Positions 36,530 through 63,509 of a stretch of 64,000 nucleotides of DNA are shown one piece after another. The stretch is taken from positions 1-64,000 of the forward strand of contig CALLAC010000010.1 of assembly GCA_938002655.1 (NCBI GenBank), in the 5' to 3' direction. Below the pieces are notes generated by a model. It saw nothing but the letters and a program-made list of their open reading frames with translations, was not told the DNA's origin and did not search any database. Each line of letters begins with the position of its first letter. Position 1 is the stretch's first letter. The stretch is from an uncultured Cytophagales bacterium (lineage in GTDB: Bacteria > Bacteroidota > Bacteroidia > Cytophagales > Thermonemataceae). The translations under genes and the position numbers were made by a program.

Positions 36530-37090
36530 TCACTTTCCTGCTTTGGCAAGTTCAATCATTGCCTCTATTTCGAGGGCAGTAGCGTCGGAAGAGCCATTAT
36601 AGCCTTCAGAAGCAAAACGAATATTGCCTTGGGTATCTACTACAAACTTCATAGGAATGCCCATAACCCCAAATTTACCTGCAACTTCATCATTTTCATC
36701 AATAAGTACATTGAAATCGTACTTTTTCTTTTCAATAAATCGTTTGAGGCGTTCTGTACGATTGCGAGGTTCTTCGCTAGTAGCAATAAAAAGAAAAACT
36801 ACGTTGCTATCTTCTTTATACTTATCAGCGACTTTTTTTATGCTTGGGAAAGATGCCACGCAAGGTCCGCACCAGGTAGCCCAAAAATCTAGAAATACGA
36901 CTTTTCCTTTCAAATTAGAAAGTTTTATACTTTTACCTTCCAAATTTTTAAGTTCAAAATCGGGAGCGGCAACATTTTGTTTCAGCATTTTTCGTCTTAC
37001 TTCTTTTTTAATACTTTCCAAGTCTTGGGAAAAAGCTGGCACCAAAGTGATTGCTAGTAATAACACGAAAGACATAAGGTTTTTTTTCAT
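36530..37090 (-). CDS. TlpA/ResA-like periplasmic thioredoxin
   Basis: A 186-residue redox protein with a signal peptide (MKKNLMSFVLLLAITLVPAF, SQ). The AhpC/TSA-type start VAAPDFELKNLEGKSIKLSN precedes the active site VVFLDFWATWCGPC, with Cys74 and Cys77. The cis-proline loop is MGIPMKFVVDTQGN. This architecture is that of TlpA/ResA proteins that reduce disulfides in cytochrome c maturation or envelope proteins. The target cannot be assigned here. It lies 47 bases downstream of the giant sensor gene in the same direction and may be co-transcribed. Confidence 0.92.
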   Translation of the reverse strand: MKKNLMSFVLLLAITLVPAFSQDLESIKKEVRRKMLKQNVAAPDFELKNLEGKSIKLSNLKGKVVFLDFWATWCGPCVASFPSIKKVADKYKEDSNVVFLFIATSEEPRNRTERLKRFIEKKKYDFNVLIDENDEVAGKFGVMGIPMKFVVDTQGNIRFASEGYNGSSDATALEIEAMIELAKAGK

Positions 37091-50035: not shown

Positions 50036-50142
50036 CAAACAAAAGCCTTTGGCAAAGTGTTCTTTAAACAAACACCCATATATTCATTGATTGCTGTGAA
50101 ATTTGTACTTTGCAAATCCAAAATGACGCACAATACTTTTTT

Positions 50143-50577
50143 ATGGAAGATTTTGAGCTTATAGAAAAAATCGGCGAAAGATTGGTTGATGAGCATTTGA
50201 GCATCAAAGAAGAAAACTTTCGCTTGAAGCAAATTATCAATAATGAACACGTTGTGCCGTTTGTAATTGATAAGAAAGGTTTTTTTATTTTGCCAAGCAA
50301 ATACGCCCTGAAAGCTATGGGTTTGCAAGCTAAAAAATTAAAAACTCGCAATGCTTTCGAGTTTTTTGAAAAAAACCCAAAAGCCATCGAAAACATACGC
50401 CGAGCTCTACGCGGCGAAAGTTTGGTAGATGTGCTCAAACTAGACGGCAAGTATTGGAAAGTAGCTTATCAGCCTACTTACGACGAGCACAACCAAATCA
50501 TTGGTATTACAGGCTTGAGTATTGATGTTACAGATGTTATTGAAAATGCCGAAAAAATCAAAAAGACATTAGGATAA
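50143..50577 (+). CDS. Small single-PAS-domain protein
   Basis: A 144-residue soluble protein. After a helical start (MEDFELIEKIGERLVDEHLS and a coil rich in E, R, L) comes one PAS fold (about 40-135): VVPFVIDKKGFFILPSKYAL, DGKYWKVAYQPTYDEHNQII and the PAC ending GITGLSIDVTDVIENAEKI. There is no output domain. It could be a stand-alone ligand or redox sensor, or a partner of a kinase. The ATG at 50143 is chosen; an in-frame upstream start at 50110 would add 11 residues. TACTTTG at 50107 may be an imperfect -7 box. Confidence 0.78.
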   Translation: MEDFELIEKIGERLVDEHLSIKEENFRLKQIINNEHVVPFVIDKKGFFILPSKYALKAMGLQAKKLKTRNAFEFFEKNPKAIENIRRALRGESLVDVLKLDGKYWKVAYQPTYDEHNQIIGITGLSIDVTDVIENAEKIKKTLG

Positions 50578-50614: not shown

Positions 50615-51409
50615 ATGAAAACTTGCAAGTGTTTTTTTATGTTTTGTTTGTTATTCCAACTGGCTTGGGGGCAAATACAAAAGCCTAACCAAAACAAACC
50701 TGATGCTATAAAAGATAACAAAACAAACCCCCAAAAATCTACTCCTCAAAAAAACATGATTGCTAAACCTGAACCAAAAGCTCAAAAAGATACATCAAAA
50801 AAAAACAAAATCGTAAGACCCTACAAGCCCCCTACAAACCCCGAAGACTCTATACTTACACTGGAACAGCTCTTAGAAAAATCTATCATCATTGATTCTA
50901 CTTGCCCACGTTGCAAAGGCTACAAATATGATAGGTTCTGCGATGGCTTATACTGTTATGGTGGCAAGTGTGCTACTTGTAAAGGATACCAAAAATGTAT
51001 CCATTGCGACGGCACCATGTACAAAGGTGCAATTGCCTGTCCTTTCTGCAAAGATATCAAAGAAGGAAAAAGTACCGAAAAATGCCCATATTGCAAAGAT
51101 TTCAAATTTGGTGCAAGAAGATGTATCTATTGCAACGATGGCTCAATGAAACTCAAAGATAAAGCCGACTATCTGAAATTCACTCATTTAGAAGGTTGCC
51201 CCGAATGTACCGATGGCAAGTGCCGTATTTGTAAAGGAACAGGACTATGCAGCAAGTGTAAAGGCTCGGGAGTACTACCTTGTACTCGCTGTAATGGCAC
51301 AGGCTTGAAAGCACCTGAGCAAATCAAAGCCGAAAAAATCAAGAAAATAGAAGAAGAAAAAAAGCGAATACGCGAGCGTGAAGCCAAAGAGCTGACAGGC
51401 AGTGGGTAA
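50615..51409 (+). CDS. Exported cysteine-rich protein with repeated DnaJ-type CxxC zinc-finger motifs
   Basis: A 264-residue protein with a signal peptide (MKTCKCFFMFCLLFQLAWGQ). A lysine/proline/glutamine-rich linker spans about 21-85. A cysteine-rich core (about 92-230) has about ten CxxC units: CPRCKG, CATCKG, CIHCDG, CPFCKD, CPYCKD, CIYCND, CPECTDG, CRICKGTG, CSKCKGSG and CTRCNGTG. The last three match the CxxCxGxG repeats of the DnaJ central domain. A basic/acidic helical tail ends it. No J-domain is present. Zinc binding in the periplasm or on the surface is expected but the function is unknown. It is unlinked to other clear partners. Confidence 0.8.
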   Translation: MKTCKCFFMFCLLFQLAWGQIQKPNQNKPDAIKDNKTNPQKSTPQKNMIAKPEPKAQKDTSKKNKIVRPYKPPTNPEDSILTLEQLLEKSIIIDSTCPRCKGYKYDRFCDGLYCYGGKCATCKGYQKCIHCDGTMYKGAIACPFCKDIKEGKSTEKCPYCKDFKFGARRCIYCNDGSMKLKDKADYLKFTHLEGCPECTDGKCRICKGTGLCSKCKGSGVLPCTRCNGTGLKAPEQIKAEKIKKIEEEKKRIREREAKELTGSG

Positions 51410-62627: not shown

Positions 62628-63509
62628 TTGAACTACTACGAAATTTTAGGAGTTTCGCCGCAGGCAAGTTTTCTTGAAATCAAAAATGCTTACAAAAAAC
62701 TAGCATTCCGCTACCACCCTGACCAAAACCCCAATGATACGAAAGCCGAAGAAATGTTCAAAAAAATTAACGAAGCCTATCAAACGCTTTCTGATGTACA
62801 AAAAAGGCACTTCTATGATGTAAAATTGGGTTTTGCCCAAGAAATCAATTACAGCTATTATTATCAAGACTACCAAAAAAAACAACAAGCCCAACAACAA
62901 GTAAGGCTGGAAATACTCAAAAATTTTTTTCGTAAGTATCAAGAAGAAAAAAAAGCTGAAGAGCAAGAAATTCAAAAAATCAACAAAAAAGCTAATTTTT
63001 GGATAGCACTGGGTCTGATACTGATACTTGCACCTGCTATTTTCCTGACTATCCAAGAAAGATACCAAGTTCGCAAAATGTATTTGCTTGCTCAAACTTA
63101 TCTGAAAACGTATCAATTACGCAAAGCCGATAGCCTCATACATCTCATTCGACGAAAAAAACCAAGAGACCAAGATTATTTATTGTTGTATGTTCAAGTA
63201 CGTTTTAAAATGCAAGATTACAAAGAGCTTTTTTTTATGCTTGATAACTCTTACTTGATAAAATCACCCGAATTTCGCTTTTATTGGGCAATTAGTAGAT
63301 ACAAATACCAAAAAGAGCATTTAGAAGAGACTTTTCAAATATTGCAAGAAGTTGAAAAAAGTGGTTTCAGAGAAGGTGAGTTATATTTTGAAAGAGCTAT
63401 GTTAAAATTTAGCTTAAATACCAATAGCGAAAGTTTTTGCCAAGATTTAGCATTAGCCTTGAAAATGGGAGAGTTTCGTGCCGCTCATTATCAATTTCTT
63501 TGTCCCTAA
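62628..63509 (+). CDS. Membrane-anchored J-domain protein with a C-terminal repeat region
   Basis: A 293-residue protein starting at TTG ([15 protein letters not shown]). The J-domain (about 1-65) has the HPD triad at residues 30-32 ([11 protein letters not shown]) and should stimulate a DnaK ATPase. A Gln/Lys-rich coil (about 80-122) leads to one transmembrane helix (about 124-142). The C-terminal half is helical and TPR-like ([35 protein letters not shown]). The zinc-finger and substrate-binding parts of DnaJ are missing, so this is a DnaJ-class III co-chaperone of unknown clients. Its start is 5 bases after marR. The end overlaps the convergent glycosyltransferase by 4 bases. Confidence 0.85.

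Follow-up and report, generated by a model that had tools for sequence, protein, structure and literature searches.

J-less DnaJ-like zinc finger proteins are described as carrying four repeats in their C-terminal part, and two of them serve in assembly in the plastid: BSD2 is required for Rubisco to accumulate, and PSA2, a protein of the thylakoid lumen with repeated CxxCx(G)x(G) units, promotes the biogenesis of photosystem I (PMC4806229). ZnJ6 binds zinc through cysteine pairs and acts as a holdase with oxidising activity; it aids the refolding of reduced RNase A, possibly by oxidising it, and its hold on citrate synthase is as good when the zinc fingers are missing (PMC7865324). For LQY1 and CYO1, protein renaturation through thiol-disulfide activity has been reported (PMC4754418). 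In a search of mostly openly accessible rather than subscription literature on CXXCXGXG or DnaJ-like zinc-finger proteins, the periplasm and Bacteroidetes, no such exported bacterial protein was found.

The gene described here lies in a stretch of 64,000 nucleotides (the window; assembly GCA_938002655.1, contig CALLAC010000010.1, positions 1 to 64,000) from an uncultured Cytophagales bacterium whose genome of 2.64 Mb is 97.5% complete. The gene is conserved and its source is Raineya-like: the genome lies close to Raineya orbicola (order Cytophagales), and the cysteine-pair proteins of the two are 77% identical. R. orbicola is described as a hot-spring isolate with a growth optimum of about 50 C (PMC5982127). 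Of the 25 cysteines in the product, 22 lie after residue 20; its mature part is about 9% cysteine, and every cysteine there is paired. An earlier note on this DNA, made from the sequence alone, had called it a multi-CxxC protein of DnaJ type without a J-domain, and that description holds: there are ten CxxC motifs, six CxxCxG and three full CxxCxGxG, and no J-domain (PF00226) appeared in a Pfam scan. Shuffling the part after residue 20 (n = 20,000) gave on average 1.9 CxxC (maximum 8) and 0.15 CxxCxG (maximum 3). Proteins of the J-less kind are recognised by four CxxCx(G)x(G) repeats and the lack of a J-domain (PMC4806229); with its six CxxCxG and three CxxCxGxG, the window protein is best seen as a variant within that kind. 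The parts of the gene and its upstream neighbour are listed in Table 1.

Table 1. Positions in the window of the cysteine-pair gene, its parts and the neighbouring gene
Feature	Position	Strand	Basis and remarks
Multi-Cys-pair protein, whole CDS including stop	50615..51409	+	264 aa, ATG to TAA, signal-peptide-like start
Signal-peptide-like N-terminus, residues 1-19	50615..50671	+	Sequence; hydrophobic peak 2.32; similar site in 6/7 members by eye
Lys/Pro/Asn/Gln-rich variable linker, residues 20-95	50672..50899	+	From residue 21, pLDDT averages 25-32 per block
First half, residues 96-133, pairs P1-P4 (C97/C100, C109/C114, C119/C122, C128/C131)	50900..51013	+	Cysteines invariant in 7/7 family members
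Central loop, residues 134-193, three extra CxxC (C142/145, C157/160, C169/172)	51014..51193	+	Sequence, family alignment, gap lengths; core-knuckle Gly missing from the extra pairs
Second half, residues 194-230, pairs P5-P8 (C195/C198, C203/C206, C212/C215, C223/C226)	51194..51304	+	Cysteines invariant in 7/7 members; contains the three full CxxCxGxG; sub-threshold BSD2_CRD match 211-233
Charged C-terminal helix, residues 231-264	51305..51406	+	Helix predicted for 234-261; blocks in 241-260 average pLDDT 83 and 81
Upstream stand-alone PAS-domain protein	50110..50577	+	37 bp before the gene, same strand

The N-terminus, MKTCKCFFMFCLLFQLAWG followed by Q, has a basic n-region and a 13-residue hydrophobic stretch, with Q at +1, a residue that is frequent at this position of signal peptides in Bacteroidota. 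By eye, a similar site before Q is present in six of the seven family members, the copy of MAG 341R being ambiguous, and the hydrophobic peak exceeds 2.3 in six of the seven (2.04 in R. orbicola). The cleavage point before Q20 is a guess; at the +1 position so defined, no lipobox cysteine was found by eye in the window protein. Co-occurrence with type 9 secretion, proposed as a check in the earlier note, proved to hold for the genome and not for the protein: 41 type 9 tails were matched elsewhere in the source genome, and none of the TIGR04183 type was matched in the window protein by NCBIfam models at E up to 1, so that a role as type 9 cargo was rejected. We infer that the window protein is exported, and because such tails occur in the genome and none on this protein, it is most likely a soluble Sec-exported periplasmic protein.

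For the window protein, no family in Pfam or NCBIfam was matched over its cut-off; identity with a known family, which the earlier note had named as an outcome that would count against its reading, was thus rejected. The best Pfam match, to BSD2_CRD (PF25436), scored 16.5 bits against a cut-off of 27 and covered 23 of the 69 model positions (residues 211-233). At E up to 1, the same model matched six of the seven members (best E 0.00052), and PF00684 gave no match for the window protein and a weak one (0.081) for one member of the seven. The sole NCBIfam match was to the YidC N-terminal model (0.038; 13.6 bits vs 58.25), and no thioredoxin-type domain was found in the window protein with Pfam and NCBIfam at E up to 1. 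A search of the PDB with the single protein returned only ribosomal protein S6 (E 0.14), aligned to residues 211-260 over the charged tail, and a profile search returned 11 sequences at E up to 1, including DnaJ (1exk, 0.072), BSD2 (6ekb, 0.21) and Embryo defective 2737 (0.37); the other eight were retroviral matrix/Gag chains aligned to the Lys/Gln-rich linker, which we took as chance matches of composition. A plasmid search gave no match. BSD2_CRD was also tried as a census probe and dropped for counts: it matched in 17 of 395 genomes, in none over cut-off, and among the 17 frames seven were DnaJ itself and two loci (L041, L043) had no frame with two CxxCxG.

A sequence match was obtained in 7 of 59 genomes (the source genome and its relatives), all seven within the source's taxonomic family. 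The earlier note had proposed a profile search to see how widespread the protein is, and the answer depends on the architecture considered: the profile of the window family matched 8 of 291 Cytophagales genomes, the eighth (G012) through a different, TPR-bearing architecture, which with its own profile is far more frequent (below). In G004, one of the eight genomes of the source's taxonomic family, neither sequence nor profile search found a member. A scan of a species-genome collection gave five loci, from R. orbicola, the Raineya MAG SKYG86, MAG 341R, Thermonema rossianum and a Bacteroidaceae MAG, the last match covering only 16 residues (E 3e-4).

Sixteen cysteines are invariant across all seven members, the window's included, and form eight pairs arranged 4+4 around the central loop. 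Seven of the eight core pairs are CxxC and P2 is C-x4-C; six of the eight are CxxCxG. The gaps between pairs run 8-4-5-loop-4-5-7 (8,4,5,14,4,5,7 in the shortest form) and are identical in all seven members outside the loop and one first gap, which is 30 instead of 8 in one member. The members differ in the P4-P5 distance: in the Raineya copies of the window, of R. orbicola and of SKYG86 it is 63-64 residues, and in the other four members 12-14, including G002, which belongs by placement to the same genus; the three extra CxxC of the enlarged loop occur only in the three long-loop copies. After residue 27 no cysteine stands outside a pair, the count being exactly 16 in the four short-loop members and exactly 22 in the three long-loop copies. 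In three pairwise comparisons of the long-loop copies the whole-gene dN/dS was 0.09-0.10, an order of magnitude only since synonymous sites are near saturation; at the same rough level (high dS), loop and first half are alike in how little they change. Among the parts behind the signal peptide the linker has the highest dN, and according to the predicted model it is probably disordered. Structure prediction of the zinc sites, another check named in the earlier note, was carried out with AlphaFold2 and yielded no usable model: mean pLDDT was 40.6 in both runs (5 sequences each), and nothing was usable beyond the C-terminal helix.

In the second architecture (the TPR plus Cys-pair family; L092-L119, L046-L049, L022 and L088-L091), the cysteine pairs follow an N-terminal TPR-like domain. 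Its profile matched 89 of the 291 genomes of the order at E 1e-6; by our count 53 of the 89 matches span both parts (model position <=26 to >=216), 12 of these 53 alignments running through a stop codon, and our claims are confined to the 53, the other matches being of partial coverage. None of the eight genomes of the source's taxonomic family was matched. The two architectures were considered as mutually exclusive and this was rejected, since the count of 0 of 7 Raineya-type genomes with a TPR-type match is not significant at a frequency of about 30%. An NCBIfam scan of three members placed none in a curated family over cut-off; with Pfam, one of the three exceeded the DnaJ_CXXCXGXG cut-off and one that of GRXCR1-2_C, and in the members scanned no curated family accounts for the full length of the protein. 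Thirty-seven of the 53 members (28 stretches and 9 earlier loci) were aligned, and 32 of the 37 frames have a hydrophobic N-terminal stretch over our threshold of 2.3, with five below. Eleven positions are Cys in 37/37 rows, and the position that opens the second pair has His in a single row and Cys in the other 36. The last ligand position is His in 20 of the 37 (a C-x-H last pair) and Asp in six. The pair-8 His occurs in 20 of the 23 rows that have the first cysteine of pair 1 and in none of the 14 rows without it, a count uncorrected for relatedness, and the taxonomic families f16 and f21 each contain both states; L093-L095 keep pair 1 and have lost the Cys of pair 8. Mirror symmetry is seen in the median gaps (11-9-7-19-7-9-11), a pattern noticed post hoc in columns that include rows without the outer ligands. 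Histidine is a possible zinc ligand incapable of forming a disulfide, so its presence at ligand positions points to metal over disulfides, and the mirror-symmetric spacing argues for nested pairing; together, the spacing and the C-x-H last pair favour nested zinc sites over disulfides in the TPR type, as far as the alignment can be read.

Profile comparison of the window family with the TPR type gave a score of 86.2 (probability 97.8). In two sets of 40 column-shuffled TPR alignments none reached this score, the maximum being 29.1 with Cys columns fixed and 68.4 with Gly columns fixed as well. The aligned columns are not in pair-by-pair register throughout. Common descent of the two is likely from these comparisons. 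The direct comparison of the window family with DnaJ was weak (score 38.7, 57%, 27 columns), and that of the TPR type with the DnaJ zinc centre scored 69.8 (probability 96), the four DnaJ motifs aligning to TPR-type pairs 2, 4, 5 and 7. The two zinc sites of DnaJ are built from motifs I+IV and II+III; on this alignment they would correspond to 2+7 and 4+5, and the TPR type would have two sites more.

Of 395 genomes of the phylum, 18 matched a DNA pattern encoding two CxxCxGxG units side by side, and one matched the reversed pattern. Seven of the 18 loci are J-less with a signal-peptide-like start (by eye on open frames): four with a TPR-like region before the cysteines, L059 with MORN-type repeats, L061 bare, and the window's. 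In the remaining 11 the frames have 59-142 residues and no signal peptide is obvious; one of them, L063, may be chance. Further apparently exported cases came from other searches (L022, L029 and L014). The frame at L059:208-1302, apparently exported, with a sub-threshold MORN_2 match and eight CxxCxG, is another J-less architecture in Bacteroidota. At L014:7371-8066 a Bacteroidaceae protein has a signal-peptide-like start and four CxxC at its end, and neither Pfam nor NCBIfam matched it at E up to 0.1. Export of these J-less relatives was judged by eye or from the hydrophobic stretch. The earlier note had regarded an exported DnaJ-type protein without a J-domain as an unusual combination. The combination is less isolated than that: J-less CxxCxG proteins with starts of this sort recur in Cytophagales and other Bacteroidota, and plants have the lumenal PSA2 (PMC4806229). 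Within Cytophagales the window protein seems to represent one branch of a larger group of exported cysteine-pair proteins, to all appearance unnamed.

The PAS-domain gene upstream also adjoins the cysteine-pair gene in R. orbicola (together with TsaD) and in the SKYG86 MAG, and its product is far more conserved at these two other Raineya loci (98% and 95% identity) than the cysteine-pair protein (77% and 75%). The neighbours differ in the two Thermonema-genus loci, G002 and the 341R MAG. As they are not conserved outside Raineya and indicate no client, the gene neighbourhood was rejected as a functional clue. About 11 kb from the gene, a J-domain protein (PF00226) with two cysteines and no PF00684 match is encoded at 62628-63509 (+).

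DsbA, DsbB and VKOR gave no match in the source genome, of which about 2.5% may be absent and in which a distant oxidase could be missed, and the source organism may be without the usual disulfide-forming pathway. Among the eight genomes of its taxonomic family, VKOR was matched in one (G005), DSBA in three (G002, G004 and G007) and DsbB in none; the numbers in 14 control genomes were three, eight and six, respectively. With no match to DsbA, DsbB or VKOR, exported thiols could stay reduced or zinc-bound, which softens the difficulty raised in the earlier note, namely that zinc clusters in an oxidising envelope would need metal protection or disulfide formation; against this, two relatives with the cysteine-pair protein have DSBA (G002 and G007) and one has VKOR (G005). 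For the same reason, a Dsb-free genome as the general reason for the protein was rejected. The window also encodes, at 36530-37090 (-), a probable periplasmic thiol protein that combines a hydrophobic N-terminus with an AhpC-TSA/thioredoxin domain and a single CxxC.

Set beside the known systems, the window protein shares with PSA2 a site that is probably extracytoplasmic here and is the lumen in PSA2, CxxCx(G)x(G) repeats and the lack of a J-domain, and differs in that PSA2 is a plant protein with four motifs against eight conserved pairs here (and three more in Raineya). BSD2 (PF25436; PDB 6ekb) is likewise J-less and has a seven-residue gap between CxxCxGxG units, as from C215 to C223, whereas it is stromal, has four motifs, and its model was matched below cut-off over 23 residues. 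The central zinc domain of DnaJ (PF00684; PDB 1exk) has similar CxxCxG(xG) knuckles, four per unit; unlike DnaJ, the window protein has no J-domain, no PF00684 match, and eight pairs with shorter gaps, and the source genome encodes a separate ordinary DnaJ with four motifs. The TPR plus Cys-pair family resembles it in the signal-peptide-like start, the eight pair positions in a 4+4 arrangement and a profile similarity beyond Cys and Gly, and differs in its own N-terminal TPR-like domain, longer gaps and the frequent C-x-H last pair. ZnJ6, LQY1 and CYO1 have repeated CXXCX(G)X(G) motifs, are thylakoid-associated and show holdase and/or thiol activity (PMC7865324, PMC4754418); they are plastid proteins with two to four motifs, and they, like PSA2, are likened to the window protein by description only.

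We propose, tentatively and at somewhat less than an even chance, that the product is a Sec-exported, soluble periplasmic protein whose eight cysteine pairs bind zinc in nested fashion and which serves as a holdase or assembly factor without an ATPase. The eight conserved pairs would hold about four zinc ions, two knuckles each, most likely with P1 paired to P8, P2 to P7, P3 to P6 and P4 to P5, giving a rod of four zinc sites that would in effect be a doubled DnaJ zinc centre minus the J-domain. Aided by the basic linker and the charged tail, this rod would bind or hold unfolded or unassembled envelope proteins, with plastid assembly factors such as BSD2 and PSA2 as the model for holding. ZnJ6 speaks against such a role of the zinc sites, since it held citrate synthase with or without its fingers (PMC7865324). 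Against nesting, the gaps of the window family are only roughly symmetric, a tandem 4+4 pairing fits them equally, and a strict link of P1 to P8 is weakened because L093-L095 keep pair 1 after losing the Cys of pair 8. A wider version, which we consider possible and rather doubtful, would make the two architectures one unnamed Cytophagales zinc protein, an exported mirror-symmetric ladder of four nested sites standing behind a TPR domain (the widespread form) or alone with an expanded Cys-bearing tip (Raineya), and acting as an ATP-independent periplasmic assembly chaperone, in some cells with few or no disulfides.

The odd number of pairs in Raineya bears on all of this: 11 pairs leave at least one outside a two-pair zinc site within one molecule, and that unpartnered pair could be redox active or bridge two molecules. 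It is here that a competing reading has most in its favour, that of a periplasmic thiol-disulfide helper, in which some CxxC, above all the odd extra pair of the Raineya loop, would form or shuffle disulfides. We think it unlikely, though the three loop pairs do lack the knuckle Gly, the source genome without a DsbA, DsbB or VKOR match could want another catalyst, and plastid zinc-finger proteins point the same way, LQY1 and CYO1 by their reported thiol-disulfide activity (PMC4754418) and ZnJ6 by its effect on RNase A (PMC7865324). The loop pairs are, however, absent from four of the seven members, the CxxCxG form is seen in six of the eight core pairs, the TPR type has His at ligand positions, and few Dsb proteins may just mean few disulfides. 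Another reading is a structural, disulfide-bonded cysteine-rich protein whose DnaJ likeness would be convergent. The even number of cysteines (16 or 22) and the signal-peptide-like start suit such a protein; against it stand the CxxCxG turns, the lack of a match to the three disulfide-enzyme families in the source genome (a distant one could be missed) and a likeness to the TPR type, with its His ligands, that extends past the Cys and Gly columns. We rate it improbable. Of equally low probability is a periplasmic buffer or delivery protein for zinc or another soft metal, with a metallothionein-like role. The high content of cysteine, all of it paired, would suit it, and the Raineya loop pairs would raise its capacity. 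Metallothioneins, however, have loose cysteine spacing, and here the pair gaps are fixed in all seven members except for the loop and one first gap; moreover, the sister family couples its pairs to a TPR-like domain, and no metal-transport or resistance gene was recognised among the neighbours (those outside the window judged from their first 60 residues). Lastly, the N-terminus might be an uncleaved anchor or go unused, leaving the zinc module in the cytoplasm as in other small Bacteroidota CxxCxGxG proteins. The modest hydrophobic peaks of the window protein and R. orbicola, and the small four-motif proteins of the phylum without such a start, speak for this placement, which is nevertheless very unlikely given the Q behind the guessed site in six of the seven members (by eye) and the hydrophobic stretch in most of the sister-family frames.

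DnaJ-type thiol-rich zinc modules are usually regarded as cytoplasmic. If the protein is exported and zinc-bound as we read it, the periplasm of these bacteria would keep zinc-bound thiols stable. If the proposal of an exported zinc-binding holdase is true, the protein would offer a simple system for the function of the DnaJ zinc centre freed from the J-domain and Hsp70, and the question whether Raineya does without a disulfide-forming pathway would become testable.
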